A DNA stretch of 64,000 nucleotides, from contig RPFO01000085.1 in NCBI GenBank assembly GCA_009746045.1, positions 62,001 through 126,000 on the forward strand, written 5' to 3'. Below the pieces are notes generated by a model. It saw only the letters and a list, made by a program, of their open reading frames with translations, did no database searches and had not been told where the DNA came from. Shown here piece after piece: positions 24,618 through 48,895 of the stretch (the first letter of the stretch is position 1; each line of letters opens with the position of its first letter). The position numbers and the translations under genes were made by a program. This DNA comes from Mesostigma viride (lineage: Eukaryota; Streptophyta; Mesostigmatophyceae; Mesostigmatales; Mesostigmataceae).

Positions 24618-24962
24618 AGTTGAGTAACTCTAGAGCCCTAGGATCTGGCTCTAAGTTCCCCATGTCCATCCGCACGCCTTCCGCTAGCGTCCGCTAAGCC
24701 GCCGGCTATAATCCGGCGGTCCGATGCGGTCGACCGGTCTAAGGGCGGCGCCTAGGGCCGGCGCCACCTAGGCCCCAGTCCGGGGCCTTATCCGGATCGG
24801 TACGGACAGCTAGCTTGTCCCACGGTTACGGCTAACCGGATAGGGTTTGCTGGCTAAGACATAAACCAGTGGTTGGCCAGCTCCGACAGCAGTTCTCTGT
24901 GTTCACCTTATCCCAAGCTCAACGTGACCGACCGCCATAGCTGAGCCGGTCGGGCTTTAACT
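24618..24962 (+). repeat. 5' LTR of copia#1
   Basis: 345 bp, starting AGTTGAGTAACTC and ending GGCTTTAACT. It contains an imperfect inverted block around 24690-24790 (gccgccggctataatccggcgg and ggcgcctagggccggcgcc). The sequence right after the LTR (TGTATTCATAAAAATCC) does not start with the TGG expected of a standard tRNA 3'-end primer binding site. Confidence 0.93.
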
Positions 24963-24981
24963 TGTATTCATAAAAATCCCG

Positions 24982-27763
24982 ATGGCTTCCGGTACACGGA
25001 GCCGCACGGGCGAACACACAGATACGCCAAGTGGCGAGGCCGCAGGGTCCGTCCTGCCACGCTTTAGTGCGGACGAGGCCACGAGGTTGATGCAAACCCT
25101 CGTGGCGCAACCTGAACTGGCCAAGCAGTTCAATTTGATGCTTGCTGCTGACGATGCACTGAATCGCGGCCCTCTCAAGCAAACGGAGGTGCCCGCTGAT
25201 CTACCTGCCGACTATACGGCGGACGACGCAGCAGATTTTCTAGCTGCTCTCAAGCGTCTGCGCGATGGACGCGCAGACAAAGATTCGGAGCTGATTGGCA
25301 AGTTCCGTGCAGTATTTCTGCAGTACAACAAAGCACCCAAACATTGCCAATCTAGTTCGCATTGCGGACGACAACAAACAAACCTGGGAAGTTTTTTACA
25401 ACGGTCTAGATGCCCACTTGTCGCGGTCTAAGGAAGAGGCCGACGAGCAAGCCTTCAACGACTTCGAGGGCTATGCAGTTAATAAGGCAAATTTGCCCGG
25501 GGCTGCACGTGATTTCCAGGTCTTCGTGCACAAGCACAAGCTGCTAGATACTCTCAAGCCCATTTTCCTGTGCAATCGATTTCTCAAGAAATGCGACCTG
25601 TCGTCGGATGTGCATCTGACCATAGCGACGGAACTCAAAAAGAAGAGTGCCGTCAGTTTCGACGAGGGCATGCTGTATTTGATCTCATGCTTCAAGAGTG
25701 CGCAGTCCAAGCCGGCTGCCTCGGCCGCTCTGCCATCCCTGCGCAAGGTGGATACCGGCGCGTCTTCTTCTTCAGGCGCAGAGGCTCCAATTACGCGGTC
25801 GGAGCTTACGGCCATCCTGAAAAAGGTCGTCGGCCACGGCAACAACGGGGGCCAGCGAGGGCGCAAGCGCGGGCATGGTGGCGACGCCAAGCAGGGTGAC
25901 AATCCCCCGGCCAAGCGGCAGCAGGGGGCGTCTACTGACCGCAAGCAACGCTGTGAGCGCTGCTTCGGACGTCGCCATGTCCGGGATGACTGCCGAGTTC
26001 GCCCGGACCTGGAGCTCGAGGACAACCTTTGCCGCAAGTGCCACGACGTTCTGCGTGGTCACAGCGTGGAGGCGTGCAAGGCCAAGCGCATCGTCGTCCA
26101 CGGCACACGCGAGGAGTGGGCAGAGCGACGGGCAGCACGAAAGTCAGGTGAGAGCACGCTCGATACCCCTTCTTTTGCTCAATGCGTCACGCTGAACCGG
26201 GCCGTCGTAGAGCCTGACGTCGTTCCTAAAAGCAACGTGACTGCATCCTCTGTCTCATTCCGTGATGTGCTCACGCAATCCGTTGATGCTGCTCTGGCTC
26301 TGTCGCGCCAGGATCACGTGCTTCCTGAGCACGGGTCTACAATGCGTGACCTAAGCAATGTGGTGTCTTCTAGGTCGGGTGTGTACAACGCCGAGCGACC
26401 AAGCACTACTGCAGCACCCCAGCTAGATACTGGGGCGGTTGGGCCTATGAGGAATGTTGTGACAGTGCAAGAGAATGCTGGGCGGGCAGATGTTCTCGGT
26501 ACACACCACCCTAGTGTGGATCTTCACATTGGCAAGGTGCTCACACGGGCGGCCTTTCGTGCAGCCTCTGAAGCTGCCCAGTTAGCCAATGTCACTACCC
26601 CAGTAGTCACCCCACCTGTTGAGAATCCTGACAATGCCACTGCACCTCAGGCTGTCACCCTGAAACTGTTAGCATACCAGATGCACCGTGCATACGGGCA
26701 TGAGGCCCAAGCCGAGGTAGAGGGGGCACACATGTTGGGGGCACCTTTATACAACGAGCTGAAGAATGTGCGTGCTCAGTGTCCTGCCTGCATCAAGATC
26801 AGGAAGAAGTCGCGTAGGCGGCATGCCAAGACTCCACCCTTGGAGCGAGGGTACCTTGTGGGGGATGTCATGCACATGGAAGGGGGGGACACCTATTTCA
26901 TAGTCAAGGATAGGTTCAGCAAGGTCACCTACATTGAGCCGCTGCCCCACATGTTTGAGGCTGACCTGCACAGGGCTATCAAGATCAGCCTGGCTTTCTT
27001 TCATCCCGTAGTGGAGCTCATGCTAGACCAGCAGTTCCGCTGTGTGCAAGGTTTGCCGGGGATGGAGGCCGTGGTCATCGTGGGGCGTGAGGATCACGGC
27101 AATATGGGCATGATAGATCGCACTGTAAGCTATGTCAAGACTGTGGCAGCCAAGCGACAGGATAACCCACATGGCAAATCCTACGCGGTCAAGACGGCGT
27201 GGTGCAAGGAGCTCATGCATGTGTGCAACCATAGGCACGTGCTTGATGTCAAGGGCTTTGGGCTAGTCACGCCTCGGGGGCTGTCAGCGGGCACCTACTC
27301 ACCCGAGGTAGTAGAGGCATACCAACAGCATCTACAGGATACCGCCGCCAAGCTGCGGCTCAAGGATGCCACGCTGCCTGATTTGTCTAGCGCTTTTGAG
27401 GTCGGGCAGTTGGTCATGTTCCACAAGGAGAGCTCGCCCAGCGGCAAACGGGGCACCATGCAGGGGCCTGGGGCCATCACAAAGTTAGACTGGCCGCTGC
27501 GGGTCATAGACATAGAGTGGAATGATCGGGTGTATAGGGTACCATGGGCATCGGTGGCAGGCTATAAGCAAGGGGATAGCATGGAGAGTGAGCTGGCAGC
27601 CAACAGGGCACTGGGGTGGGTAGTGAAGGATAATGCGCCTGTCGTAGCATCTGAGGTGGTACCCCACGGGTCGCTCCCAGGGGCAGACACAGCTACACCC
27701 CCCCCTCCCCTGGGCCCCAATATGACCCCGTGGATGGGTGGGATGAGGATGGGGTGGGTTTGA
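24982..27763 (+). pseudogene. Gag and integrase region of copia#1
   Basis: The gag N-terminus (from the ATG at 24982) runs in one frame to about 25330; the protein then continues in the 25295-27763 frame, so one indel has occurred. Gag carries basic stretches (GQRGRKRGHGG) and two cysteine motifs (CERCFGRRHVRDDC and CRKCHDVLRGHSVEAC) at about 25955-26085. The gag-pre-integrase part has H-x3-H-like and CPAC residues (about 26680-26800). The integrase core follows with acidic residues in GDVMHM and LMLDQQF. The third site reads GMIDRTVSYVK, so Asp stands where the other copies here have Glu (AIERA, IAERA). No protease-sized domain is seen between gag and integrase. The last residues overlap the next ORF in another frame. 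Confidence 0.85.
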
Positions 27764-28573
27764 CGGGACCTAGTGCACGTAGTGACTCACCTCCTGTGCT
27801 AGCCACGGATAATGTGGGAGGCCCGCCTAGCGTGGCCTCGCCGGAGGGTCAGGGTCCTGCCCATGCGCCTCGCCCACCTAGGGACCTGGCTTCAACGGTC
27901 ACGGCCTTGTGGCGTGCTCAGGCGCTTAAAGCGAAAGCTGCATCAGGGGTGGCTCAGGTCAAAACTCTCTCACAGGGGGTCAGGCCGGTTAAGTCAGCCT
28001 TGTTTCCTACGTGTAGACCGTGGCAGCTGGTGGCTGTGGACACGCAAGCATCCGTGTCTATTATCTCTCGTCGGGCAGCCACCCTGTATCCAGTGCTAGA
28101 GTCGCCGTACAAATCGGTGACCGACTTTGCAGGCACTTCGGCATATCAAGTTACCGGGATGGTGGTGCTGCCGGTGTTGGGCATTGACACGCCGTTTCAC
28201 GTCGTGGATGGCTACGAGGATGTGGCCTTGCTGGGCGAACCTTTCGTATCATACCCGGGGTTCTCAGTGTCCACTGACTAGCTGTCGGTCGCGGGGGTGG
28301 GCAGCATCCCGCTTCGCGAGTACCACGCTCCATTGGGGGTGGTGGTAGGGCAGCCCGGCGTCGTGCGGCGCTTACCGATGGTGGCGTTTTCCACACCGCC
28401 GCTCGTCCAGTCCATCATTCAGCCTCAGGATTGGCACCCGCGCAGCTTCGGCCTCCACTCACACTCACTGGCGGCGGATAGCCCTGTGACGTGGGAGCAA
28501 CTTGTCCTGGACTGTCAAGATCCTCTCAAGTTTGCTTTGTGGCGCGACGCGTTCATTCGAGCCAAGGAGCAGT
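27730..28573 (+). pseudogene. Retropepsin-like domain and start of RT, copia#1
   Basis: This frame follows integrase and carries an aspartic-protease-like segment: VAVDTQASVSII at about 28025-28060, then a beta-rich stretch (VTGMVVLPVLGIDTPFHVV) and the flap-to-C-terminal motif DVALLGEPFV near 28220-28250. The canonical retropepsin triad is D-T/S-G; here it reads D-T-Q. A TAG stop at 28279-28281 interrupts the frame, which then continues open (VGSIPLREY ...) to the copia#2 insertion at 28573. After removal of copia#2 and LINE-B the reading passes straight into the RT at 42517. Confidence 0.75.
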
Positions 28574-28856
28574 AGTTGTACTGTGTAGTTCTACTCAGTA
28601 CCATAAATCCTACAGTAGTGTGGACGCCGCGCCGTCAGCATCTTTGCTGCGTCGGAATCTTGTGAACGGCATCTAGCGTCGCGCCGAGGAATCTCGGACT
28701 ATGTTAAGCAAGTCCAATGCACGATGATAAGTTAATGAGAAATAAATGCAACGTGACGGCGGACGAGGTAGCCGCCGGCGTGTTCCTCTGCGTAGCACCA
28801 AAGCAAGTTTGCCTCTCGACGAAGAGCGTTGGTATCCAAGACACATTATTGCAACT
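28574..28856 (+). repeat. 5' LTR of copia#2
   Basis: 283 bp with AGTT...AACT ends. Compared with the 3' copy it has acagt inserted near 28613 and several substitutions. The internal region starts TGTACTCAAGAAAG, again not a standard TGG primer binding site. Confidence 0.92.
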
Positions 28857-28883
28857 TGTACTCAAGAAAGAACATTTTCAAAA

Positions 28884-30128
28884 ATGTTCCGGACGGGCCT
28901 GACAACGCCGTCGTCCAAAATCAAACACAAAATCAAGCTGCCGAATCTCGGAGCCCTGGGCTCGAAGGGCGTGGGCACACTCCGCAAGCCCACCGCGAGC
29001 GAGATTCAGAGGAATCTGAACGAAGAATTTGCCAAGCAGGATAGCCCCGCAGTGGTGGACACTGCGGCGGAGGAAACTGCACCTGCAGCTGCCCGTGCAG
29101 CGGAGCTGCCAAGTGGATCACAGGCGAGAATCACCAACGAGGCTGGGCTGCGCACTGCAAGCCTAGACCGTGCTGCCCGCATCCTCTGGATGAAGGAGCA
29201 CAAGGTGATCGAGGAGCGAATTCCTGCGCCGATTCCAGCGGCTCCTGAGCCATCAGAGAAGGTGAAAGAACAGTTTATTTTGAACCTGCGAAAGTGGCAC
29301 AGTGATGTCCAAGACATGGTAGCCAAGCCTATCGAATTGCTGAGGCGCAATCGGCTGGCCACCGAGGGTTACAAGGTCGTATCCGACCTGATCGAGATAG
29401 CCTACAAGGAGGACCGGAGATGGGAAGAATTCATGGCTAGTCTTGAGAAGAATCTCCTGAAGACGGGGCTAATGCGCCTCGTCGCAGATGCAGTAAGTAT
29501 TCTAAAGTTTGATCTGAATCGGAAGGTAGACATCAGCCAGGCAACGCTCGACTACGAGCAGAAACTGGCGTTGTCGTCATGCTCGCCAGGTGACGCCTTC
29601 TCGGTGGTAATGTTTCTGGCAAAGGGCATCATGTCTGGTAGCCTGTCTGAGTCCGCCCTCCAGGGCATGTCGGGAACACTGACTGTCGACAAGCTAGCAA
29701 ATAGGGCAGAGGCTTTCCAGATTATTCGCAATTCTGTTGCTGTGCCGGCTGCCGCCAAGGCATTGGTGGAAGCGGGCATTTCTGACCCTCTTTCCTCTGC
29801 TGCAGCGCCCATTGCAAGAATTCATGGTGCAGGTGAAGAGAAGTGTGGCCGATGCCAGGGCACCGGGCATGTGTGGTCGGATTGCCCAGCCAACACGAAG
29901 GCTGGTCCGAATAATATGCGGCTGTGTGGCGCCTGCCACCAGCCAGGGCACTTCGCCAAGGACTGCAAGCACACACGCGGTCCGCAGGGCAAGAAGCGCC
30001 CGCCCAAGCCGGCTGGCAACATGCGGCCCAAGAAGGCCAAGTGGAACAAATGGCAGAGGCAGGGGAACACCCAGGTCACACCTGCTAACACTCATGTGCC
30101 TGTCCCTGCTCCCTCTGCAGCAAACTAG
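28884..30128 (+). CDS. Gag of copia#2
   Basis: A continuous 414-codon frame starting at the first ATG after the 5' LTR (28884, in aaaATGttc). It encodes a basic N-terminus (KIKHKIKLPN), a long helical central part and a C-terminal nucleocapsid with two CCHC knuckles, CGRCQGTGHVWSDC and CGACHQPGHFAKDC (about 29840-29975), followed by a Lys/Pro-rich tail. It would form the virus-like particle shell and bind the element RNA. The intact frame, in an element that lacks RT, suggests selection or recent birth. The start was chosen because it is the first ATG downstream of the LTR; earlier in-frame Met codons lie within the LTR. Confidence 0.85.
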   Translation: MFRTGLTTPSSKIKHKIKLPNLGALGSKGVGTLRKPTASEIQRNLNEEFAKQDSPAVVDTAAEETAPAAARAAELPSGSQARITNEAGLRTASLDRAARILWMKEHKVIEERIPAPIPAAPEPSEKVKEQFILNLRKWHSDVQDMVAKPIELLRRNRLATEGYKVVSDLIEIAYKEDRRWEEFMASLEKNLLKTGLMRLVADAVSILKFDLNRKVDISQATLDYEQKLALSSCSPGDAFSVVMFLAKGIMSGSLSESALQGMSGTLTVDKLANRAEAFQIIRNSVAVPAAAKALVEAGISDPLSSAAAPIARIHGAGEEKCGRCQGTGHVWSDCPANTKAGPNNMRLCGACHQPGHFAKDCKHTRGPQGKKRPPKPAGNMRPKKAKWNKWQRQGNTQVTPANTHVPVPAPSAAN

Positions 30129-30542
30129 ATAGCCCATGTTGGGACGATGATGTGTTTACCACTGATCTAGCTGCATGTAATGAGCTGGGTAGTTGTGTAG
30201 ACAACAATTCTGCTGCGTGCATTGCTGCTGTGTTGCGTAGCGGCTTGTGCACAGACATTGTTACGCCTGCGGCGACGCGGGACCATGAAACCCCAACGAC
30301 CAGTAATGCTGGTACTATGCAGGCTGGACTCATGCACGTCGACCGTGACGATGGGGGGTCACTGGCCACACCAGGTGAAGTCCTTTCCTTGACTGCTGTT
30401 GCTGCACGCTTGCATCATGTGTTAGGCCATGGGACCCACGCTATCCGTTTTGCACGGGCATTGGCACCGGGGACTAAGTTGGCTAGCACGGTGCAGTCCA
30501 TGTACAGTGGTTGTCACCAGTGTCAGTCCACTGCGCCTAAGC
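30129..30542 (+). CDS. copia#2 pol fragment: gag-pre-integrase (continues at 39832)
   Basis: A frame distinct from gag (ORF from 30152) carries the gag-pre-integrase zinc motif: HHVLGHG followed by CHQCQS near 30510-30530. It is cut at 30542 by copia#3. Joining 30542 to 39832 (one TAAGC removed) continues the same frame without a break into the integrase core, which proves the two pieces were one gene. No protease lies between gag and this segment. Confidence 0.85.
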
Positions 30543-31158
30543 AGTTGAATGAGAGTTTACCACCGAGGGAATCCATGGCTCTTGCAGGAAAGTTGCCTTT
30601 ATTATAATGAGCAAACACAGACGTAAGTCACGTCAAGTCCGAGACTGCACGTAGCACAGACGACAGGGTCGTTATGCCAAGAGAGCGTGCACGCAAGAGC
30701 TAGCGTCCCGGTGTGACCAAGTCACTCATATAGCTTGCTAGGGACGCGTCCAAGTATTCAGCTGCACTGTCACAGCTGAACTGTCAATCAATTGATTACA
30801 CAGACTCTGGCACGCCTTTGGCGCGCAGATCTATCAATTGTCCATACGGCTAGTCCTGTGGACCTATCCGTACACTAGTCAGCATCAATTGTCTCATAGG
30901 TCCTGGCGCGCTACAGTGCGCCTACCTATCAATTGACCATCAAGTCCTGTACAAGTCCTGTCAACGTCCTGCGGACTATCAAAGTGACACTTGTACATCC
31001 TGTGTCCGTACGCGCCCACAGTGGCGCGCCGGGTACTGTCGGCACAGCCTAGGAAACGTCATAACTTTTACGTTCCTTAACCAAATGAGGCGTTCAAGGT
31101 GCCGTTGGAAAGAGCGTAACAATCTCTATCCATCTAACGTAAATCCTTTACGTTAACT
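30543..31158 (-). repeat. 3' LTR of copia#3
   Basis: 616 bp. On the minus strand it follows the polypurine tract at 31159-31180. It contains several copies of tcaattg and agtcctgt, which may be promoter or regulatory repeats of the LTR. Confidence 0.95.
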
Positions 31159-32110
31159 CCAATCCCTTCTTTTCTTTAGGGATCACATCCCCTGCCAGGG
31201 ACCCTTGAAGTAGCTTGAAATGTCCTTCACTCCAGCTTGAAGCTTGAACAGATGTCTTTAATGGCCATTGCCATTCCCCCAGCCCTTTCTTTTAAGGAAC
31301 TGGAAAAGAAACAGATCTGCCACAGGGAAAACCATTTCATGAGAAATGGATAAAAACCTATGGAAGTGGCATTACAGAGTACCACCAGATATTAGAAACA
31401 CACAAAATTAAATACATACAGGTTAATTCTATGAGGTCTTCTCCAGGAATTAATCCCATCACCTCGGTAGAGCCTCCAGTACAATGACCTTCTGGCGGTG
31501 AGTTACATTAATCCCAGATACTAATCCCATAAAACCCAGTACATATCTAATATAAGCACAATAAATCCATGACAATTGAAATACCACTTGACAAAGTAAG
31601 ACGTATTACAATAGTTTCCCCGTCATACTCTCAACAGGTTAGTATTGGCGCCCGTCTTATGGCGCCCGTCTACTTGTCAGATGATAAATTGCCACAGCAA
31701 ACAAATGACAAAATGAAACACATAGGCAACAATTAAATCCTGCCCTGGGGAACTAGGGAAGTCTGAACAGGTAAAACACCTGAGCAGGCCAGCTTGTAGA
31801 AACATAATACCAGGGAATCGAACCCCGCCCTATAAACCCCAGAATAAAGGTTCCCAGACCATTGTGTGAGGTATGTACAAATATACATTTCTTTTTAAAA
31901 TAGAATACATGGTCTGTAATGGACCTGTCAACCTTGTGTAGTCAACAGCATGAACCCCAGCCAAAACCTGGCTGTATCCTGATTAAAATCAGAGTGAGTG
32001 TACCATGGTCCATGAGCCTTAGTACAGACTAAAATACAGGTATTATGCCAGTCACAATGCTGACACTACCACACAATCTGCTCTCCAATGCCCTATAACC
32101 AGGCACCAGC
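31159..32110 (-). other. 3' untranslated region and polypurine tract of copia#3
   Basis: About 950 bp between the end of RNase H and the 3' LTR, with no ORF of note. The LTR-proximal end reads, on the minus strand, aaagaaaagaagggattgg, a clear polypurine tract for plus-strand priming. The region is A/T-rich compared with the coding part. Confidence 0.8.
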
Positions 32111-32854
32111 TTAGACAGCTTGCTGAGATGGGTCCATCAGAGACTGAAGAACCTTGTATTGCACTGCTGCCTTCTGCACTAGCTTGGTCAAAGCATCAGC
32201 AGGATTGTCAACCCCAGGGATATGCTCAATATTGGCCAAGGAGGACAATTCCTTAAGAAGGAGATAATCCAAGTCCCTACTTCTGGCCATCTGCCTGTGC
32301 ACAAACTGCACCATCCCCATGGAGTCTGTTTTTAGAAGAGTGGTAACCTGAAGTGGCCAAGGAGTGTTAGAAGTCATCTGATGAAGCAACTCCTTCAGAT
32401 AAAGGCTTGTGTGAATGCCTTCACAAATAGCCCTGCATTCTGCCACATCACTACTGACAGCCACCCGTTTGTGCAGGCGACTGAACCAGCTCACCAAACT
32501 CCCCAGGCCTTCCTGTCTGAGCACAAAGAGCCCTGCAGCCCTGCCCCTGACCTTGGAGACCTGCCTGCTGTCCATTGAGCTATCCACATACAGCTCCATG
32601 CAAATGGGTTGTGATAAATCCACTGCAGACAACAGAATGCCAGACGAAGCCCTGACCTGATCAGCCACCTTGGCAGACCCTAGCTCTGTCAGCATGTCAT
32701 CAGGCAACCTGGCTATGACCATAAGGTCTGGCCTGGAAATGCCTGCCACCCAAGCAACCATGCCCCTCACCATGGGACACAGTGCCTGTGTGATGACTGG
32801 AGGAAGCTTGCTAATGAGGGTCTCTTGATAATCGTTGCCCCCCACCAGCAGCAT
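32111..32854 (-). CDS. RNase H domain of copia#3 pol (frame-shifted from RT)
   Basis: The copia-type RNase H, which degrades RNA in RNA-DNA hybrids during reverse transcription. Motifs: ELYVDSSMDS (first Asp), SSDVAECRAICEGI (catalytic Glu region), LKTDSMGMVQFVHRQ and the typical C-terminus IEHIPGVDNPADALTK. This frame overlaps the RT frame and is one base out of register. The shift falls in a run of seven G on the minus strand (seven C at about 32873-32879), where one extra base would bring the two into a single frame. It could be a recent indel, a sequencing homopolymer error or, less likely, frameshifting. Confidence 0.85.
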   Translation of the reverse strand: MLLVGGNDYQETLISKLPPVITQALCPMVRGMVAWVAGISRPDLMVIARLPDDMLTELGSAKVADQVRASSGILLSAVDLSQPICMELYVDSSMDSRQVSKVRGRAAGLFVLRQEGLGSLVSWFSRLHKRVAVSSDVAECRAICEGIHTSLYLKELLHQMTSNTPWPLQVTTLLKTDSMGMVQFVHRQMARSRDLDYLLLKELSSLANIEHIPGVDNPADALTKLVQKAAVQYKVLQSLMDPSQQAV

Positions 32855-35736
32855 ACGCCACTCCCCCCCTTCTTCACCAGTGTGGCCTCCATGCCCACAA
32901 ACAGGAGAGGCTCATTCTCCACCTGCCATTGCTCCCTACCCAGAGGAAACTTGGACTTAATGATGGAGATCAGCTCCTTAAGCCACGACGTGGGAGCTAT
33001 CAGATGTAGGTCATCCCCGTGCAGCGAAGCATACACTGGTAGGCCTTCCCATTGCCCCAGAAACAGACAGGGGTCTACAGGAGAAACCTTCAAGTTGCAA
33101 TGCTCCTTCAGGAAACGGTTGAGAGTCTCCCTCCAGATTATTGGACTTGACCTCAGGCCCTCCAGGCCCTTGAGGATTTTAAGGAACTCAGTGTGAATGT
33201 CCCTTTTCCATACAGCAGGCACCCTGACATAGAAAGGCGTCTTGCCCTCCCACTTTTCCTGTGCCACATCTGCATCCCCCTCCAGAAATGCCCTCTTGAA
33301 GTCTACCACCACTGAGCCATAGTCCAAGCCCTTGTTGAGAAGGCCTAGAAATACACACAGCAGCAGCCTCCAAGTGTCATGCAGCATGCCAGGGGTATAC
33401 AACTCCTCAGCGGTGCACTCACCAGTACCCTTGAACTCATTCAGTACTGGCCTGACGTGTGGTACCTTGACCCCGTCCACCTCCTTCATCTTGATGACAA
33501 ACTTGAGCTTGAGTAGACGTCGTGCAGGAGGCAGGTCATTGACAGGTTCCACGCATTTCTTGGAGATCCAGTCCTCCCCAGATTTAATCAGACCCAGTGT
33601 GACCTGGGGACACATAATGGGAGAGGACATGAGCTTCACCAGGCCTTGGTAGTTTATAGGGCTGTGTCCAGCAAGTGAGTGAGGACCAATGCCCAAACTG
33701 CTTGGATGACTAGCAGCTGGCAATATGAGGTCATCAACCAAGGGCTCCTGCCCCTGGCACACTTGCACACGCTTAACCGTCCTGGTTACTGCACGTGATA
33801 GGTGAGTGGTCCTGAAATTAATCAGTGGGACCTGACCAGCCCCTTCCTTAGTCAGGAGAGAGGACGTGATCACTACCCCATCCTGGCATAGGAAATTCTG
33901 CCCCAGAAGAGCAGGTCCCTGATAGCCCTCCAAGACACAAAAAGCAGTGTCCTGTCCAAGGATAGGAATGGATACCTCACCCAGTACCTTCACGTGTACC
34001 CCGCCACTGAAGTCAGACACAAACTGATAGCTGGGTTCAGTCATGCTGTACCCTGCTGCAGCTCTGGTCCCAATGATGGAAACCTGAGAATTAGTGTCTA
34101 CCTCTAAGGCAGTGTCCAGCCCCAGATTGCCATGCCACCTGAGCTTGGCTACCTTGGGCTGCTTCTTGGCCCTTTGCAGAGCCCCAATTAATCCAGCCAA
34201 ACTTGTCCCCCTGGGCTTGGTTAGAGCCTTGGGCTTGACAGTTGACTCCCCAGCTGTTGACCTTGCAGCCTGTTCAACAGGTACCTCTGCAACCTGGCCA
34301 GGGCTGACAGATTCCCCTGCAACAGATGTGGTCGTTGCATCAGTGATGTCACTTGGGACCTGAAAATCCTGCAGGTCCTGTGAGCCTTGTGCCTGACTGC
34401 CCTCATTCATCAGGTTAGGCTTGACATATGACCAACTCAGCCGGTGCACATGCTTTGGTTCGTCCTCCATGCTGACCAAGCATGCGTGGCTAGCTTCATC
34501 AACCTGGGTAACCACCCCAGGACTCCAGCTACCACGTTTGCCATAAAGGCTAGGTTCCTTCCAAGCTAGGACCTTCTGACCCACTTGTGGCTCCAGCATC
34601 TTCCAACCCCGGTCCTTCTCCCTCAGCTTGGCAAAGGTGACATGTGCAGCATGTTTCCAGCCCTCCAGCACATGTGGTGGGCACAGGCCATGATATAGAC
34701 CCATTGGGCTGACAGCAACTCCATCATAGTAGAAGTTAACCCTGCTGTTCAGCTGCTGCTCCACGTTCCTCAGCCATGCACTCCTGACAAGTGCAGGTGC
34801 AGATAAGGGTACCCAGTCTTCAGAGATAATCAATTTCTTGACCTCCTGGATTGCCCTCTCTATAGCACCCTGCTGCCCATGAGCCTCCCTAGGTGTAACC
34901 AGCAACTCAGGAAGGGTGGGATCACCCTTGAGATGCTGAAACTGCATGTCCACCTGGATCCTTGTGGTAGGAAACTTGGCTCTTACATTCTGCAGGGCAG
35001 CCAGCAAGTACCTGTTCTTCATAGAAGGTAAATGCTCCAGCACCTTGTATTTTGTGTACCTGTCCACGCACACCAACAGTTGCATGCCCCTGATGTGTTG
35101 GATATCACACTGCAGATCACCAATGCTCTGAGGTATAGCTTTGGCATGTGATTTCCTGGGCTTGTTGGAGGACAACTGGCACTTACACCGTGAGGCAGCT
35201 TGCTGACACGCCTTAAGAAGGGGTGCCCTGCCCATACGGAAGGCAAAGTTGTTTGACAGAGAAGTGGCATGCCCAAACATGTTGTGGATTCGGGCACCCA
35301 ACTCCTGGTACACAGAGGAAGCAGTCCCTGGCACAGTCAGGACTGTGCTGTCAGGTTGTCCAGCATCACCATGCTGTCTTCCATCCTGTTCTGACTCAGA
35401 GTCTGAGTCACCCTGCTCATGCCCAACACCTGGACCGCCAGCAGGGACCACATGCATACCACCAGAGGCCTTCACACCCCTCTGTGGTTGTACATTGGTT
35501 TCTCTCAAAATGAGAGGTCCACCCTCGTGCCCAGCACAAGGATGCATGGGGTCAGACATTCTTACAGCTGCACCAGCTGTCAAGGACGTCTTCATAGGAA
35601 CCTGTACCTCTCCAGGTGACCTGGGGCCACCATGAACCTGGAGATCACCCTCTTGTTGCCCAGATATAAAATCTGCATTGGAGCACCTGGCCTCCCCCTT
35701 GGGTGAATTAAGGTGTGTAGGGGTTGCCTCAGACAG
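32855..35736 (-). CDS. copia#3 pol: integrase, retropepsin-like, reverse transcriptase
   Basis: Continues in the same frame as gag after the TGA at 35737-35739. Domain order on the protein: a Ser/Asp/Glu-rich linker; the gag-pre-integrase zinc region (RIHNMFGH ... CKCQ, about 35150-35300); the integrase core with CDIQHI, IQVDMQFQ and GAIERAIQEVKK; then a protease-like domain (LEVDTNSQVSII at about 34080-34110 and ALLGQNFLCQDGVV at about 33880-33910). The RT comes last, with LKLKFVIKMK, VVVDFKRAFLEG, GLEGLRSSPIIW and LHGDDLHLI near 33005-33030. RT family traits (SSPIIW for QSPRAW) point to Ty1/copia. HGDD replaces the usual Y-V-D-D. The protease-like domain sits after integrase, unlike Ty1/copia (PR-IN-RT) and Ty3 (PR-RT-IN). 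Confidence 0.85.
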
Positions 35737-38275: not shown

Positions 38276-38397
38276 GGTAAACTACACTAGCTGTGTATGG
38301 CCCTAAGCTAAGCAGCTGGAAAACAAAAGACAGGTAGATATGTACAATCTGTCAAAAAGCCGCCTGCCCCGGTGCCGACCGCGCCACCATGCCGAAT

Positions 38398-39183
38398 TCA
38401 GTCGAGACCACGAAAATCGCAGTAGTCGTAGTCGTAAATTGGATCGTTGGCGACAGGCGCAGGCGCCTCCTGGCCTTGCCCAACCTCAATCGTCACCGGA
38501 GTTTCGATGACGATGGGGTCCAACCGACGTCCCGTCACCGGATCAATGCGGCGACGACGGCGGCGGGTGACGATGCGGAGCGGGTTGGTAAGAATCGTTA
38601 GAAAATCCCACCCGTCCGGCGCCCACTCTCGCAATGCAGACAAGAACGCGACAAGATTGAGCAGCAATTGCCGCTCACGCGTCCGGAAGCCTCGCGACAG
38701 CAACTGCAGAATCGCAAGGTCTTGAAACAGGTTGGTCGTAATCGTCGGAATGACGCCCGAACGAACCGACAGCCAGTTAGCGAGATTGCGCTGGTAACCT
38801 GTAAGCGATGAAACCGCGTTGTCGATCTCCTCAGAGACGTCGGCAACCGCGCTGGGCGCTTGCAACCCCGCCCGGGTATGGACCTCGAAGTCCGCGAGCA
38901 AAGCTCGAATGGAATCAAGGTAATCGCGAAACCCCGAAACAATCGAAGGTTGCGGAGGCGGGGGCGGCAGTCGTAGGTTTTGCAGCAGTGCCTGCTGCTG
39001 AGCGCGTAGCTCCGCACTGGACGCTACCGCCTGGTCAACAACACGCTGCCACGCCGGATTAAGAACCGGACGATCTTCACGAACAGGAGTCGTCGAAGGA
39101 CCAGCCGGAGATTCGGCGATGTCCGCTGGACTGCCCAAAATTTCAGAATCCCTCGGAATGCGGAACTCCATCGAGTCCGGCAT
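38398..39183 (-). CDS. ORF0 of copia#3, unknown function
   Basis: A 261-codon frame starting at the first ATG after the 5' LTR (39183-39181) and ending with TGA at 38398-38400, about 120 bp before gag. The product (MPDSMEFRIPRDSEILG ...) has a Pro-rich patch (LRLPPPPPQP), several predicted helices and an Arg-rich run (TRRRRRRIDP) that could bind nucleic acid or act as a nuclear localisation signal. There are no Cys-His knuckles and no recognisable domain. Its position before gag is unusual for copia elements. It could be an accessory protein, or the first part of a gag-like shell expressed separately. Confidence 0.7.
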   Translation of the reverse strand: MPDSMEFRIPRDSEILGSPADIAESPAGPSTTPVREDRPVLNPAWQRVVDQAVASSAELRAQQQALLQNLRLPPPPPQPSIVSGFRDYLDSIRALLADFEVHTRAGLQAPSAVADVSEEIDNAVSSLTGYQRNLANWLSVRSGVIPTITTNLFQDLAILQLLSRGFRTRERQLLLNLVAFLSALREWAPDGWDFLTILTNPLRIVTRRRRRRIDPVTGRRLDPIVIETPVTIEVGQGQEAPAPVANDPIYDYDYCDFRGLD

Positions 39184-39210
39184 TTTTCTTGGTACGAAGA
39201 TTGTAATACG

Positions 39211-39826
39211 AGTTGAATGAGAGTTTACCACCGAGGGAATCCATGGCTCTTGCAGGAAAGTTGCCTTTATTATAATGAGCAAACACAGACGTAAGTCACG
39301 TCAAGTCCGAGACTGCACGTAGCACAGACGACAGGGTCGTTATGCCAAGAGAGCGTGCACGCAAGAGCTAGCGTCCCGGTGTGACCAAGTCACTCATATA
39401 GCTTGCTAGGGACGCGTCCAAGTATTCAGCTGCACTGTCACAGCTGAACTGTCAATCAATTGATTACACAGACTCTGGCACGCCTTTGGCGCGCAGATCT
39501 ATCAATTGTCCATACGGCTAGTCCTGTGGACCTATCCGTACACTAGTCAGCATCAATTGTCTCATAGGTCCTGGCGCGCTACAGTGCGCCTACCTATCAA
39601 TTGACCATCAAGTCCTGTACAAGTCCTGTCAACGTCCTGCGGACTATCAAAGTGACACTTGTACATCCTGTGTCCGTACGCGCCCACAGTGGCGCGCCGG
39701 GTACTGTCGGCACAGCCTAGGAAACGTCATAACTTTTACGTTCCTTAACCAAATGAGGCGTTCAAGGTGCCGTTGGAAAGAGCGTAACAATCTCTATCCA
39801 TCTAACGTAAATTCTTTACGTTAACT
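39211..39826 (-). repeat. 5' LTR of copia#3
   Basis: 616 bp, nearly identical to the 30543-31158 copy. The internal region on the minus strand starts CGTATTACAATCTTCG, which again is not a classical TGG primer binding site. Confidence 0.95.
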
Positions 39827-39831
39827 TAAGC

Positions 39832-40264
39832 GTGCACGTAGGCATGTCAAACATCCACCCCTTGAGCGTGGTCACTTGGTGTGTGACATTTTGTTCCAGG
39901 ACCAGGCTGTCTACTTGCTGGGAATAGACAGATTTTCCCATTTTGTTTCAGTTGTCCCACTCAAGTCACAGCATGTTGGGGACCTCCTTGAGGGAATAGA
40001 TCTGTTGGACTCCATGTTTAGCATGGTTACAGGGATGCAGTTTGATCAGCAATTCAAGTGGGCTGCCAAGGAACCAGGATATGAGTTTGTGGGAACAGTG
40101 GGGCGTGAGGACCACGAGTCACAAGGGATAGCGGAGAGAGCGGTACAGGAGTTTAAGCTACTTGCTACCCGACGTGGGGACCGTGTCGGTGACTGGGATG
40201 CGGCCGTACCGATCATCTTGAGTACATCCCTGTCCGTACCGACTCACAAAGAAAAAGAAGTCAG
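39832..40264 (+). CDS. copia#2 pol fragment: truncated integrase core
   Basis: Continuation of the pol frame from 30542. It carries the integrase acidic residues in LVCDILF, GMQFDQQF and GIAERAVQEF, so D-D-E is preserved. The frame then ends in a Lys/Glu-rich stretch (HKEKEV) that is actually the polypurine tract before the 3' LTR. The integrase C-terminal domain, RT and RNase H are missing because of an internal deletion, not because of the nested insertion. Confidence 0.85.
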
Positions 40265-40540
40265 AGTTGTACTGTGTAGTTCTACTCAGTACCATAAATC
40301 CTAGTGTGGACGCCGCGCCGTCAGCATCTTTGCTGCGTCGGAATCCTGTGAACGGCATCTAGCCTCGCGCCGAGGAATCTCGGACTATGTTAAGCAAGTC
40401 CAATGCACGATGATAAGTTAATGAGAAATAAATGCAACGTGACGGCGGACAAGGTAGCCGCGGGCGTGTTCCTCTGCGTAGCACCAAAGCACTTGCCTCT
40501 CGACGAAGAGAGTTGGTATCCAAGACACATTATTGCAACT
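40265..40540 (+). repeat. 3' LTR of copia#2
   Basis: 276 bp, AGTTGTACTG to TTGCAACT, followed directly by the TSD GCAGT. Immediately upstream is the polypurine tract aaagaaaaagaag. Confidence 0.92.
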
Positions 40541-40573
40541 GCAGTGGCGAGAGCGCGAGGTCTACCGAGGATT

Positions 40574-42503
40574 AATTAATTAATTAATTAAACTCGTGCT
40601 CCCGTTGGGGAGTCACGGAGCACCGAAGTGCTTTTAATCCCTGTGTGTGCACTACAGGAGAAAGGGCAGAGACCCCCAGTCTCCTTCATGCCAAAGGCAT
40701 GCCACAGCTGCAATCGGGCGCGGCTAGCTAAAAGGACAGGCTAACGATCCGGCAAACTGTGGGTGCAATAAGACCCATGTGAGCATATCATAGCAAGGAG
40801 CGTGGGCAAGTAATCTGAACATAGCCAGGGCGTAGCATGGCTGTACTAGGACTAGGCTAAGGCTATGGCTGGTTGTGTACCGTGCGTTGGCGGCACGTGA
40901 CTAGGTGTGTTGGCACAGCTAGGCAACATTCTAGGCATGGCTGCCTTAGCGGCAGTGACGCCAATGGTTACAAGCTAGGGCTATTGCTATTCTAGCCCGC
41001 TGGGGGCGTCCACATCTTGTGGTTGATCATCAGGTCCCCGCCCCTCCAGTACACCTTGGGCTTCTGGGGGTCCTGCTTATGGCGGAGGTATTCCGGCCAC
41101 AGGTCGCGTCGCTGCTGTTGCTGAGCGGGGGTGAGGTCGTCATCCAGCGTCCAGGTGAGGTCGTGCAACCGCTTGCGACGAGAGAGGAACCGCTGCTTAT
41201 CCTCAGGGGAGGAGAAGGTGAGTAGGACTGGTGGGGGAGCCGCCTTGTCCCGTGAGTGGGGAAGGCGGTGGCACCCACGCAGTTCTACCTCACCTACCAG
41301 GCCCATGAGGGTAAGAAGCTGGTTCTTGAGCTCGTCAGCAAGAGAGGTTGACGTCTCACCTGGCTTCTGGGGGAAGCGACGTAGCACCACTCGGCACTCG
41401 CGGCGAGCGCGATCGGTGACCTCCCGTTGCTGGGCCTGGCGGTGGTCCTCCAGCTCCTGGAGCTTTGTGGCGATGGCGTCGGTGGTGGAGGCGGTCGCTG
41501 ACCGCAGCAGGTCCGCGTAGGAGAGCGGCGGGAGGTCGCCAGCATCCTGCCGGGGTGGCTGGGATGCAATGGTGGCCGTCTGCTCCGCTATCTTGGGGAC
41601 CTGTGTGGCCAGGGCCTCGGTGTGGGCGGTGATGGCCTCAAGCTTCTTCAGGAGCACGCCACACTTGCCCTCCACCTGGTTAAGGCGAGAGACAAGTGCC
41701 GCATGCGTTTCCGAAGCTTGTGCCGCGGTGTGCAGCGTCGTGAACTGGGGCTGGAGCTTGTGGACGACCTTGGTTTCCACGTTGGAGACCCGGGCCTCGA
41801 CCGTGTTGAGCGTGGTGTTCAGCGATGTCAGCTGCTCGGCCAGCGGCCAGGTCACGTGCTCCTCCAGCACTGCGCGGATGTCATCCTTGCGGAGGGAGGA
41901 AGCCGAGGGGGCTGCCGGCTGTGCGGGGGCTGGGGTGCGGAGCGTGCGGGTGATGTCGATGAGGCGGAGCTGGAAATGGCTGGTCAAGATAGCCAGGCGT
42001 TGTTGTGCTTCGTTCATAGCATAGAGCCAGGACATGTCTCCATCGTAGTCAATAGCCCCCTTCACGAAGAGCTTCCGCTCCTGTTCGAGGAACTGGAGAA
42101 CCTCAATGCATTCCTGCGGCGACAATTCTTGCCACCCGGTGAGGGAGAATCCTCGGTCGCCGGGGAGGAACTGGCGCCATTTGCGAGCGTGGCAGGGTTT
42201 CTTGGGCTCAGGCGAGGCGCTGGGAGATGGGGCTGCTGGCGGTGGGTTGGCAGGCCCAGACGGCTGGTTGGCGGGTAAGCCTGGCGGCGGAACAATGGCG
42301 AGGGCGAGAGGGTTGGGCGCTGGGAAGCTGTGCCAGCTCCTTTTCCAGCCCTCGTTTTGCTTTGGTAGTCGTCATAGCTGGTCACGTGCGTAACTTTGTC
42401 TATACTGCGTGGCAGCCGTAACCGTTTATACTGGCAAGTGCGTCTTAGAAAGGCGCATCGAATGCAAGTGGTCTGACCGAATTTGGGGCTCAGACGCAAA
42501 AGA
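40574..42503 (-). mobile_element. ORF1-only LINE, copy B (inserted in copia#1 RT)
   Basis: Flanked by a perfect 13-bp TSD (tctaccgaggatt at 40561-40573 and 42504-42516). 1930 bp on the minus strand: a 5' UTR of about 125 bp, ORF1, a 3' UTR of about 400 bp and a (TTAA)n tail. The 5' end is complete enough to include the ORF1 start, yet the element goes directly from ORF1 into the 3' UTR with no reverse transcriptase or endonuclease. Together with copy A this defines a non-autonomous LINE derivative that keeps ORF1 only. Confidence 0.93.
40992..42376 (-). CDS. LINE ORF1 protein, copy B (one frameshift near the N-terminus)
   Basis: The likely start is the ATG at 42376-42374 (MTTTKAKRGLEKELAQL). 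A single-base frame change near 42325 is needed to enter the main frame, which runs from there to the stop at 40992-40994 and includes the conserved segment MSPQECIEVLQFLEQE at 42125. Domain layout is as in copy A: a Pro-rich N-terminal linker, a coiled coil (about residues 150-270), an RRM-like domain and a C-terminal domain ending in VYWRGGDLMIN. ORF1 proteins of this class coat the RNA and act as nucleic-acid chaperones in target-primed reverse transcription. The RT must be supplied in trans. Confidence 0.8.
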
Positions 42504-42516
42504 TCTACCGAGGATT

Positions 42517-43945
42517 GGAGAGTGTGCCAGCCGGGGCCACGCGGTTGCGGTTGAAGTTCGTGCTCACTTACAAGCCGGACGAGACCAACTCTTCGGTGGT
42601 GTTCCGGGTTAGGCCCGTGGTCACGGAGACGAAGGGGTCCTCCCCGCTGGATGCCAAGGATCTTTATACCCCTGGGCTCAACCATGTTTCGCATCGGCTG
42701 CTGACGGTCATCTACTTGGGCAAGCGGAACGCGGGCAAGGACTACGGGATGTGGTGCGGTGACTTTCAGCGGGCATTCCTCCACAGCGACGCTGGGGTCG
42801 CGCAGCAAACATGGCAAGGCACCCGCTACGTGGTGAAGGTCCCGGTGGTCTGGCAGGATGGCACCATTGGCAGCGAGTATATCGAGCTGTTGACAGGGGT
42901 GGAGGGGCTGCAGAGCTCTCCCATAATCTTCCGCATTTCCGCGGAGGAGGTCTTGCAGAGCTTAGGGGCCACGTACCATCGCGCTGATCCTAACTTCTTT
43001 GTGGTCCCCACCGGCGTCCCTGGCGAGCCAGCCCTCTTCGTGTGGCATGGCGATGACTTCAAGCTGGTGGCACCTCGCACATTTGCTACCCAGTTTCTTG
43101 CTGCAGTGGCGGCTAAGTTTCCCCTGGGCAGGGCGGTGGATCATGAGGAGGGTAAACCCGTGCTGTTTTGCGGCGTGCAGTCTACGTTGCAGCGGGATTC
43201 GCGGTCTGGCGAATGGGTCATGCACATGCAGGATATCCGCAACTATGTGGTTGACCTGCTGGCCGACCTCTTGTCCCCGCTGTTGGCAACCCATGGGCCC
43301 TCGGTTAAGGGCAAGCTCGGGTGATTGGCGGACACGGTGGCACCTGATTTGGCAGTGCTCGCTCGCCTGCCCGATGATGTGCTGGAAGGACTAGGGTCCA
43401 TTCATGTTCGGCGGCAGCTGGCCATGACGCCCGGCTCGATTGCTCACAGCCGGTGCACCTCGAGATAGTGACGGATGCTAATCTAGAGACGCGCACAGTC
43501 AGCCAAGTGCGGGCTCGCATGGGGGCACTGTTCTTTATCAGCAATGAGGGCCAGCCTGGCATGTTGTTAGATTGGTACTCGCGCTTGCACAGCCGCATTG
43601 CCACTAGCCCCAACACGGCTGAATGCCGGGGCATTGTTTCAGCTATCTCACATGGCATGTGGCTGCAGTACTTGCTGGGTTGGGTATTTGGCTCGTGTGG
43701 GTTCACTCTTCACTGGACTAGCACGGTGCACACTGACTCACAAAGTTGTTTGGCCTTCCGGCCTTGACAATCCCTATGCGCGGTCACAGGACGTTGATTA
43801 CTGTACCTCGTACTCGCTGAGGCGGCCTCCTGCGTCACGCGTCTCCAGCACATCGCGGATATTGCACTCACCAAGGAGGCGCGGGAGGCTGCCCCGCAGT
43901 ACGCAGTGTTGCGCAAGCGCATGACGATGCAACACCCGTGAGCCA
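42517..43945 (+). pseudogene. Reverse transcriptase and RNase H of copia#1
   Basis: Continues the frame broken by copia#2 and LINE-B; the seams read through once TSDs are reduced. RT motifs: LRLKFVLTYK, VRPVVTETKG, WCGDFQRAFLHSD, GVEGLQSSPIIF and the catalytic FVWHGDDFKLV at about 43035-43070, where HGDD replaces Y-V-D-D as in copia#3. The frame stops at a TGA (43322-43324). RNase H then appears in shifted frames: EIVTDANLETRT, SRIATSPNTAECRGI and the HTDSQSC block, ending around 43940. Several indels show that the gene is dead. Confidence 0.85.
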
Positions 43946-44701
43946 CACAGGGTTACGGCTCGGGCGCTTTATGAATACAGCCATAACTCACCCTGTGTTG
44001 CTAGCATTCACGAGTATCTTGGTGGTAGTTTTTTTTGCTTGTGCTGACCATACCCTAGCCACGTTGGACGGTGCCTTGGGCCCGTCGGCGGGTCACTGGT
44101 CCTAATAAAATGGGTCACCTTTTGTCTGGTGGCATAGTGTTTTTTTTTTTTCTCGATCCTTATTACATCTCTATTCATGTGTGATCACAAGGGCGCGGGT
44201 CGATACCGTGGTGATTTTGACGGCCTTGAGGCCCCCTTGAGTTCCCTACTTTAACACGTATGGCTATTTAAAATAGCGCCTTAGTGATTGAGAATGAATG
44301 CGAAAGACCTTTGACAGTTCCTATGCGTCACAGCGCACGATGGTGACTTAAGAATACTTGTTACACAATACGAATAAGCTCAAACCCGGAAAACCGGTTT
44401 CGTATATTACAATGTTACCACACAGATTAAAACACTCAATCCGGGAAGACTTACACCCAGTAGGCGAGGGATTCACACTCGAGCCCACAGGAGATTTACA
44501 CTCCAGGATTAAGCGATGGTAAATAATCTGTAGAGCAACGTGGTAAATTACGATACAAGGTCCGGATTGCTGGCATAGCTCGTGCCTTCCTATTTTGTCC
44601 CTTCGTCCCCGTTGGTGGCTGCGCCTGGCGCTGCCAACCAGGCACCATGACGTCGGACGTGAGGTCCGCAGGGACGGGCTTCTCGAACCGTCTAGAACAC
44701 A
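43946..44701. other. 3' region of copia#1 before the piggyBac insertion
   Basis: A non-coding, A/T-rich stretch between the end of RNase H and the TTAA at 44702. No ORF with a recognisable domain. It resumes at 48171-48540 after the piggyBac element, ending in a weak polypurine stretch (aaagaacaaaagag, about 48521-48534) before the 3' LTR. Confidence 0.6.
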
Positions 44702-44831
44702 TTAACCCTTAAATGGTAGCAACTCAGTCCTAAAAATCGGACTGAGTTGCACATCTTTGCACCTATGCTTCTCATGGCCCAAAAACAATTTCTGGCTATC
44801 CCTTGGTACCAAGCATGCATATATGTTGATT

Positions 44832-45160
44832 CCTCCGCCTTCTTCAAGGAGTGTTGCCGGCTCCGGGAGGACCGGCTGGACCTGGAGGGCCAGCGGGCCC
44901 CATGGTCGGCGCGGACCTGGACGTCATATTGGCGTCAGCGCCTGTCGGTGGCGCTGACTCGGGCCATGGCTGACATCATGCTCCGCCGTACGCGGGCTGA
45001 TTTTGCGGTGCAGCAGGGCTATTAGGTTCCTCCCGTTAGGCGTTTCCATTGGTCTTATCGTAGTATAGAGCTTTGACATGGCTCTGTATATAGGTTTATA
45101 GCTGGGCGTTTGCTTTGGTTTGAGTGATTTCACTCTGCTGTAAGTAATTATATTTTTAAT
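44832..45160 (+). mobile_element. 5'-truncated LINE fragment inside piggyBac
   Basis: Flanked by a 13-bp direct repeat (atatatgttgatt at 44819-44831 and 45161-45173). The matching arm of the piggyBac derivative at 58239-59942 lacks the insert, which confirms the empty site. It encodes about 60 residues up to a TAG at 45022-45024 (FFKECCRLREDRLDLEGQ ...) and then a short A/T-rich 3' UTR ending tatttttaat. The family is not identified further. Confidence 0.85.
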
Positions 45161-45669
45161 ATATATGTTGATTTTCATGGGGGATAGGTCACTAGTCCCA
45201 AATCAGTTACTTTTGGGTGCTATAAATAGCGCACACCCCAGGGGGGTACGGAAAAATGGGATTTGACATGTATATAATGCATCAGTTGTTGTTTTACAAT
45301 GTTGTTGGCCCTGGAATTTCAAAGGCAGATGGAAATAATCCTAGGAATGGCATAGGAACACTGACTTCATGAAATGTTACAAAGCTCCACACGCCAGCTA
45401 GCGAAACGTCAAAAGTGACTCAGTCCTAAAAATAGGACTGAGTTTTTTTGCTACAATTTGCTAGCAAACCAATCAAAATATGTATTCCCTGTGGCATAAA
45501 CATATGGCAAGACACACAAATGCACAAAATTATCAAGCCCAGTTGTCGGCACAAGACACTATGCCATAAAACATACACACATGTGCCAGCATAAACACGC
45601 GCGCGCGCGGCGCCGGTAAGCAAAGGTCTAGCCCTATAAGGTGACCCACTACAGCTTTAGGGCTACCAT

Positions 45670-47854
45670 CTACGAGGAGCGCCTCTTGCTCTTCAGAGCA
45701 CGGCGCCTCGCGACCCCGCCCAGCAGGCCAGCACCCTCTGCCGCCCTCGTGGTGCGCCCGTTGGCCTCAGCCCATGCCCTGCCAGCCGCGCTGCGGCTCG
45801 TGAGCGGCTGCTGGGCGCGCTGCTTGCGGTCGCCCCCGTCCAGGCCGGTCAGCGCCCCCGAGTGGTACGCGTTCCAGCAGGCACCCACGCACAGCGCCGC
45901 GTCGCAGTCTTTGCACCAGAAGCTGGTGCGCTTGCGCACCTTCTCCACCGTGCACACCACGCACTGGGCCTGCTCCACGAAGGGGATGCGCTCTGGCTCC
46001 AGGTGGGTGCCAGTGAGGCGGCCGCTGATCCCAGGCTGGCGGATAGGTGGCGTGGCGAGGAGAGTCACCCTGCCGCCTGTCCACTGGTTGCTGACCAGCT
46101 GTCGGGCCAGCTCGCTCAAGAAGCCAGCATGGCTGTACATGTCAGCGCGACCAGCGCGGATGAGCTAATGTGCAGGATAAATGCATTGGTGACCGAGTTG
46201 GCCAGGTGGGCGGTCGCTGCCCGGTGCCACCAGATGCGTGTCACAAGCGCATCCTGCACGGGGTATTCAGCCCCGAACTGGTCCTGCAGGTCCACCGCCT
46301 TGTAGACCCCCCAGTAGATCGGCACCAGGCTTGGGGCAGGCACCGTGATGCGCATGTCGCGGCCCCCGTGGCGGCTGACCTCCACCTCGATAAGCGGGAC
46401 CCCCTTGGACGCCATCCACACCGTCTTCCTGTCCTGCCACGCGGTCAGGGTGAGCCCATCCTCGTTGACAGCCCACGCATACTCCCCCTGTTCCGGCCTG
46501 CGCCCCAGCAGGTCCTTGACCTCCGTGAAGGGAACGGCCCGCGCCTGTTGGGCATGATGGTGCCCACGACCTGGTGGCCCTGCACGTCGTGGAGCTCCTC
46601 CAGCATGTCACGGCTGGTGTAGAAGCGGTCAGTGGCGATCCTGCACGGGTGCGGCAGCATGCCCGCCAGCATCTTGGTGATCTTGAACGTGTGCTGGTCC
46701 TCGGGCAGCTTGTCGTAGGTGTGTGCGTGGTAGAGGTAGCCAGTGGGCCAGTCGCAGATGCAATACTGCTTGATGTGGAACGGGGAGGGCTTGGTCGGGT
46801 TATAGCACCGGATGGGGCACAGCTTGTGCCGCGTCGAGATGGAGCGCTCGTCGATGGCAGCCTGCTCCCCTGGCACGAAGTAATGCTTGTACGCCTTGTT
46901 GAGAATCTCCTCCAGTTGCAGGAACTGGAAGAGCCTCCACTCACGAGAGTGGCGGTTCTCAGGGCGGTCTGCAGTGTTCCTGAAATGGAGAATTAAGCGG
47001 CAAATCTGATCAAACCTCATCCGAGGCATGATGTGCTGCAGGTTGGCAGGATCTGCAGCGCCCATGACATCCCAGAACAGAAGAAACAGGTCGAGAGGAC
47101 TGAACTTGTGCGCACGGCCGGGAATGTTCTTGTATGTCGCCTTGCCGTCAAACGCAGGCGCAGGTATCTCGGGCAGAATTCCATCCTCAGGCTTGCCGTT
47201 TCCGAAAATCCAGCCACCATCCTGCCGAGCATGACGTCCAGCGGCACCATCATCAGGCTCGTCCTCTTCGTCGGTCTCGACCAGGTCTGGCACCTCGGCG
47301 TCATTGTCCTCGTCAGCGCTGGCTTCGGAGTTGTCATCGTCATCAGGAGCACGGAGTGGCTGCAGCCGACGCCTTCTGGGTGGATTCTGGCGTGCCGGTG
47401 CTCTGGCCGAATTGCCAGCCTTGCGCTTGGCACGCTTCCTGACCGGGGAAACCGAAATATCCTCGCTGTCGCCATCGCTAGCTGAGGAGGGGTCAGATTC
47501 GTCGTCGGCACCCCCCGACACCCCACCGTCCTCAACATCATCCTGCACTGCGGCATCGCCATCATTCTCATCACCACCGTCAACATCTGCCGAGCCTGCA
47601 GCCTCGGCGACCTTCCACTGATAAACCTGCGCCTTGGTGAAGTCGTATTTCTTTGGATCACCCTCGAAAAGACATTTCGCGAGAGTGCATGCGCGGTTCA
47701 GCGACACAACAGACCCAGGAATGCGCACAGTAGCATGATTTTCCCCGAAATTCTCCAATGCCCAGCCAGCACCGAATATAGCCGGTGGTACCGAAAGCTT
47801 AATGCCACGTCTGAGCAAAAATCCTGACTGCGCGCCACCGGGAGGCGACGCCAT
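45670..47854 (-). pseudogene. piggyBac transposase (two frameshifts)
   Basis: Starts at the ATG at 47854 (MASPPGGAQSGF). An acidic N-terminal region and a basic patch (RKRAKRKAG, possible nuclear signal) precede the DDE_Tnp_1_7 fold. The catalytic aspartates are recognisable: AIDERS (about 46855), ATDRFYTS (about 46630) and, in the shifted frame, TAWQDRKTVWM (about 46425-46455). The C-terminal cysteine-rich domain (CVVCTVEKVRKRTSFWCKDC, then CVGAC and H) lies at about 45880-45960 and would bind TIR DNA. Frame changes occur near 46540 and near 46145, so no full protein is made. The three parts together have the normal piggyBac length of around 600-700 residues. Confidence 0.9.
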
Positions 47855-48540
47855 GGCTGCCGTCGTTACTCGTCGTTTTCGCGGTCTTCGTCGTTTTGGC
47901 TCGTTTTGGTCATTTTTTTCGTGCCCAAAGTTACCTTTGGACCAGGGTACCCCCCTGGATATTTCTGTTCATAGCTCCCTGTCCAGGTGTCCGAAAGTAG
48001 TAAACCAGGGGTGTACGTGAAAGTACAAATCTAGATCTCAAAGTTGGTCCAAACAGAATATTCAAAAGTTTGCTAGAATTATAGCTAGTTCTGCCACAAA
48101 CTCGGTCCGATTTTTAGGACTGAGAAAAACTCAGTCCTTCAAATCAGACTGAGTACCATTTAAGGGTTAAAGACCAGTACGGCTAGAGGCCTCTCCTGAA
48201 AAATATCCAAATGTCCGTGGGTACCATCATAACGCATGTGCAGTGCCACTTGGCTGTCCCGTAACTCCCGTTCAGGCGCTAGGTCTGCCTACGGCGCAAA
48301 GGCCAAGTTCGTCAGCAAAACTTCTACACTTACTTCCACACGGATTGCCTCGGCTGCCAACTATACTATGGCCTCGGCACTGGCGCCGGATTACGGTCGG
48401 CGCCGATCGACCGGGACGGATAATTTAATACCACAAATGGCATGTTGCATCCGTGCAACACCTACCTTAGAGGGTTTTGTATGGTCTGCATTTGATGTAA
48501 TTATTTTGATAATTAATCAAAGAACAAAAGAGTATGTCGG

Positions 48541-48890
48541 AGTTGAGTAACTCTAGAGCTCTAGGATCTGGCTCTAAGTTCCCCATGTCCATCCGCACGC
48601 CTTCCGCTAGCGTCCGCTAAGCCGCCGGCTATAATCCGGCGGTCCGATGCGGTCGACCGGTCTAAGGGCGGCGCCTAGGGCCGGCGCCACCTAGGCCCCA
48701 GTCCGGGGCCTTATCCGGATCGGTACGGACAGCTAGCCTGTCCCACGGTAATTACGGCTAACCGGATAGGCTTTGCTGGCTAAGACATAAACCAGTGGTT
48801 GGCCAGCTCCGACAGCAGTTCTCTGTGTTCACCTTCTCACAAGCTCAACGTGACCGACCGCCATAGCTCAGCCGGTCGGGGGCTTTAACT
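48541..48890 (+). repeat. 3' LTR of copia#1
   Basis: 350 bp, AGTTGAGTAA to TTTAACT, followed by TSD CGTTC. It differs from the 5' LTR by about six substitutions and two small insertions (aat near 48750 and gg near 48880). Confidence 0.93.
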
Positions 48891-48895
48891 CGTTC

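Follow-up and report, generated by a model that had tools for sequence, protein, structure and literature searches.

The 64,000-nucleotide stretch of the Mesostigma viride genome analysed here (assembly GCA_009746045.1, contig RPFO01000085.1, positions 62,001 to 126,000 of the forward strand; hereafter the window) contains a nest of long terminal repeat (LTR) retrotransposons at 24618-48890. With a probability of roughly 0.85, they represent a lineage that combines copia-type reverse transcriptase (RT) and RNase H (RH) with the domain order gag, integrase (IN), protease (PR), RT, RH, and that carries a retropepsin-like domain, perhaps captured and somewhat more likely than not still active. 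The usual orders are PR-IN-RT-RH in Ty1/copia and PR-RT-RH-IN in Ty3/gypsy elements. An IN-PR-RT-RH lineage had been proposed in the initial annotation of the window, and we recover this order in three families of one genome (copia#1, copia#3 and a third family) and in the public protein P0008.

The domains were placed by tblastn of P0004, P0005, P0008 and P0009 onto the window. In copia#1, on the plus strand, the integrase (26669-27556; zinc finger, core and GKRG C-terminal motif) is followed by the retropepsin-like domain with its linker (28030-28572), the RT (42494-43384; WHGDD) and the RNase H (43435-43923), the RT being located past nested insertions. The retropepsin-like domain itself spans 28030-28278 (VDTQASVSII...ALLGEPF; triad D-T-Q), and the linker to the RT (28282-28572; SLAADSPVTWEQLV...) is homologous to those of copia#3 and P0008. 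The same order runs from 35301 down to 32135 on the minus strand in copia#3: an integrase (34423-35301) with a D-D-E triad and 29 residues from the second D to the E, counted by eye; the retropepsin-like domain (33862-34107; VDTNSQVSII...ALLGQNF; triad D-T-N) and linker; an RVT_2, copia-type RT (32866-33555; LHGDD; limits drawn by us around the RVT_2 match); and the RNase H (32135-32860) in the -1 frame. The third catalytic acid of the integrase is D, not E, in two families, copia#1 and the third family (MIDRT and KVDRY). The integrases of copia#1 and copia#3 are 31% identical; their protease-like domains share 43% identity across 82 aa (E=3e-18). The initial annotation was thus right to treat the two as different families and to place a retropepsin-like domain between the integrase and a copia-type RT in both.

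The window copy of copia#1 has its IN and PR in different frames, and nested insertions separate PR from RT. Two copies elsewhere in the same genome (439.9 Mb in 2243 contigs; all copy counts are lower bounds) were picked for their long frames: L033 of copia#1 and L034 of the third family. L033 encodes gag, IN, PR and RT in one frame of 1563 aa, with a frame change inside RNase H. In L034, gag fills a 427-aa frame in which three zinc knuckles can be made out by eye; overlapping it, in the -1 frame, is a 1344-aa pol frame encoding IN, PR, RT and RH (both lengths measured stop to stop). The order is not a product of decay, since uninterrupted natural frames carry gag-IN-PR-RT in L033 and IN-PR-RT-RH in L034. 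The copia#3 pol occurs in at least 48 places with a 100% identical protein, and all 20 copies fetched are identical across 2829 bases. The gag-IN part of copia#1 occurs in at least 55 places (94-100% identical), and P0009, a protein of the third family, in at least 65 places printed as 100% identical (55 with the top score), 45 of the 65 having the 1344-aa open frame.

Searches over 5.8 billion public proteins, with about 8000 candidates scored in each, recovered two lineage members among the scored candidates: P0008 and P0009, one search yielding P0009 alone. P0008 (1214 aa, from an ENA contig of 6224 bases) is 48% identical to the copia#3 pol and has the same domain order. P0009 (686 aa; PR-RT-RH) is, by its source name, a Mesostigma viride gene model. 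The genome matches it at 100% from end to end, which makes this streptophyte alga very probably the host. The sole other match at E<=0.01 was P0010, a standard copia element.

By sequence comparison, the RT and RNase H are copia-type. RVT_2 matches P0004 (E=4.4e-6) and P0008 (E=0.014), both under the curated cut-off, and hhalign aligns RT and RNase H end to end with those of P0010 (E=1.1e-12, 443 columns). Pfam gave no match for P0009, the copia#1 RT or L033, and none to RVT_1; nor does the RT match that of the gypsy chromovirus at 56298-62815 on the minus strand of the window, which has the ordinary order gag-PR-RT-RH-IN-chromodomain and a D-S-G protease and served as a control.

The LTRs end in AGTT...AACT, not TG...CA, in the four families examined (the window elements, L021-L032 and L034). 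Exact 5-bp target-site duplications (TSDs) flank the three window elements, 10 of the 12 copia#3 copies fetched (the other two not scorable) and L034, where the duplication GGTGG lies in repeat-rich flanks outside identical 482-bp LTRs (AGTTGG...CAACT). Together with near-identical LTRs, these duplications indicate recent transposition. Neither the ends nor the duplications figured in the initial annotation. Most LTR elements have TG...CA ends and TSDs of 4-6 bp, according to Kojima (2025, PMC12440569).

The domain between IN and RT has the conserved pattern D-T...V-S...G...P...G...F, and almost the full length of PF13975 aligns with it in P0008 and copia#1, with weak Pfam scores. Aspartic proteases only are found among the VIA matches listed for the domain model. 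Structure prediction, the check suggested in the initial annotation, suggested a retropepsin fold, at low to moderate model confidence, and neither Foldseek nor sequence comparison found a significant match in PDB; the top Foldseek row, the foamy virus PR-RT 7o0h (E 0.46), is not significant. The triad, annotated initially as D-T-Q or D-T-N in place of D-T-G, is indeed without glycine in all four aligned members, and extends to D-T-K (D-T-N, D-T-Q, D-T-N and D-T-K).

The Pfam matches of the domain are gag-asp_proteas, Asp_protease_2 and one chance-level SPT16, and none is to PF22936, the family carried by P0010, which we take to be the copia protease. The profile of the lineage's protease scores 2.3 bits against the protease of the window's gypsy element, with 21 of 2000 shuffles equally good, and obtains no score against that of P0010; hhalign was significant with neither. 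Since the domain is closer to PF13975 than to the copia protease, capture from outside copia appears weakly favoured over a shift of the copia protease. Of the two routes offered by the initial annotation, a protease moved or regained downstream of IN, these Pfam and profile comparisons lean slightly towards the second and away from the first. The original copia protease may have been lost, and a gypsy-like or cellular retropepsin may then have been captured.

We consider the chances somewhat better than even that the domain still works from within an IN-PR-RT polyprotein, dimerising into an aspartic protease whose D-T-N/Q/K site is unusual. The elements would transpose in the usual way: a gag particle, reverse transcription and insertion by integrase. 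Against a working protease stands the absent glycine, held to be essential in known retropepsins, which argues for altered or lost activity. A lesser but substantial possibility is accordingly that the domain, in the same lineage and the same position, is kept as a pseudoprotease: loss of the glycine would have ended catalysis, the fold would be retained to form dimers or to set the distance between IN and RT, and maturation would rely on a host protease or be unneeded. The multiplication of copia#3 into many identical copies despite its split frames is in keeping with this. However, 16 alignment columns are invariant across all four members, and these include the D and the T, which an inactive domain would not need; moreover, no protease candidate other than the retropepsin-like domain was detected in the intact frames of L033 and L034. 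A bolder reading, less likely than not, is that the lineage is a superfamily-grade branch: the copia protease lost, a gypsy-like or cellular retropepsin captured between IN and RT, a glycine-less D-T-N/Q/K site in use, and AG...CT-ended DNA inserted by an integrase that is D-D-D in some families.

That the domain is conserved yet something other than a retropepsin would fit the weak Pfam scores, the low model confidence and the lack of significant PDB matches. It is improbable in view of the near end-to-end PF13975 coverage, the conserved motif pattern and the exclusively aspartic-protease VIA matches. Still less probable is an ordinary PR-IN-RT-RH copia element with a true protease between gag and IN and some other domain downstream. 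The candidates would be two DTGA strings upstream of IN in copia#1, at 25748 and 26423 (LDTGA), within gag and the gag-IN spacer (25295-26668, +), a segment in which we could make out two zinc-knuckle-like clusters of cysteines by eye and recognised no protease domain. The best hhalign placement of the protease profile on P0001 falls on the first DTGA, at a probability of 1.6%, and LDTGAVGPM recurs in L033, as the single D-T/S-G upstream of its IN. The distance from LDTGA to the next xLG motif, however, is about 22 residues, seemingly too short for a retropepsin, and the surroundings are of low complexity (by eye). Pfam matches no family between gag and IN in P0001 (E<=1) or in 35302-35736 (-) and 30089-30604 (+) (E<=10), and residues 231-460 of P0001 receive no score from the lineage's protease profile. 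The first DTGA is DAGA in L033. D-T/S-G is absent from copia#3 (36312-35301, -) and from the gag and the pol before IN of L034, so that the stretch is not conserved across families, and the BLASTP alignment of P0004 with P0008 begins at the IN zinc finger. The initial statement that no protease-sized domain lies between gag and IN stands, and no protease-like stretch was detected there in the intact members L033 and L034 either. That nested insertions, decayed frames or assembly errors created the order, an idea suggested by the nested elements that split copia#1 in the window, is practically refuted by the unbroken frames of L033 and L034, the many identical copia#3 pol copies and the separate record behind P0008.

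Like Ty1/copia, the lineage has IN ahead of an RVT_2-type RT and RNase H, and its TSD length falls within 4-6 bp; unlike it, PR follows IN and is apparently of another type, the LTRs end in AG...CT and not TG...CA, and HGDD stands where P0010 has YVDD. Classified in this way from sequence, the lineage fails two usual copia features, domain order and LTR ends, despite its copia-type RT and RNase H. It shares with Ty3/gypsy a PR directly before RT and a resemblance of this PR to gag-asp_proteas, but RT and RH are not gypsy-type and IN comes first, not last. The gmr1 group of Ty3/gypsy, reportedly described by Goodwin and Poulter in 2002, is said to have a copia-like order with IN before RT, as here, but with PR remaining before IN, whereas in our lineage it follows. 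Foamy viruses (PR-RT-RH-IN, ordinary triad) also have the protease fused immediately upstream of RT. Troyka elements are likewise distinguished by non-canonical LTR ends: they have CG...CG ends and 3-bp TSDs, occur in animals and lie near gypsy and retroviruses (Kojima 2025, PMC12440569). The CoDi elements of diatoms, likewise algal and copia-type, keep the expected arrangement of pol, PR, IN, RT, RH, according to Maumus (2009, PMC2806351). Our literature search, partial in coverage, found no description of the order IN-PR-RT-RH.

Within the window, copia#1 (+) contains copia#2 (+), which contains copia#3 (-). The copia#1 LTRs (24618-24962 and 48541-48890; AGTTG...TTAACT; 96.9% identical by BLAST) are flanked by CGTTC at 24613-24617 and 48891-48895. 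Inserted at 28574-40540, copia#2 (LTRs 28574-28856 and 40265-40540; AGTTG...CAACT; 94.6%; TSD GCAGT) codes for gag and a partial IN only: it is a relative reduced by deletion. The third element, copia#3, occupies 30543-39826 (LTRs 39211-39826 and 30543-31158; AGTTAAC...TTCAACT; 99.8%; TSD GCTTA in minus-strand reading). The 3' part of its gag (35740-36312, -), with a CCHC knuckle, is separated from pol by an in-frame UGA (CAG TGA CTG; 35737-35739, -), and seven consecutive Gs (32863-32869, -) lie where RT enters the -1-frame RNase H; both are present in 20 of 20 copies. An additional frame upstream of gag (38401-39300, -), without a match in Pfam, is 300 aa long in 11 of 12 full copies and 274 aa in the remaining one.

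Two repeats, 36304-37723 and 40571-41991, are 98% identical and encode a coiled-coil protein resembling ORF1 of long interspersed nuclear elements (LINEs), with a TTAA-repeat tail and nothing significant in Pfam. The first lies in the copia#3 gag, flanked by TCAGCGACATT, and the other in copia#1; the LINE-like insert of the window's copia#3 is missing from 19 of the 20 copies fetched. A piggyBac-type transposon (44706-48166; DDE_Tnp_1_7 at 46445-47854) is also inserted in copia#1, its termini matching at 13 of 14 bases (CCCTTAAATGGTA) at TTAA sites. A minisatellite with about 10 copies of a 44-bp unit is found at 20588-21161.

Domain order is the basis on which LTR retrotransposons are sorted, and this lineage, by its order and its LTR ends, matches neither main class. 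Annotation that relies on Pfam can overlook such elements, which may therefore be commoner than recorded: at E<=1, no Pfam family has a match in the 1563-aa frame of L033. An apparently mobile element with no triad glycine in its sole protease candidate would offer a natural way to test how much change the chemistry of aspartic proteases tolerates or, alternatively, whether LTR elements can manage without a protease.
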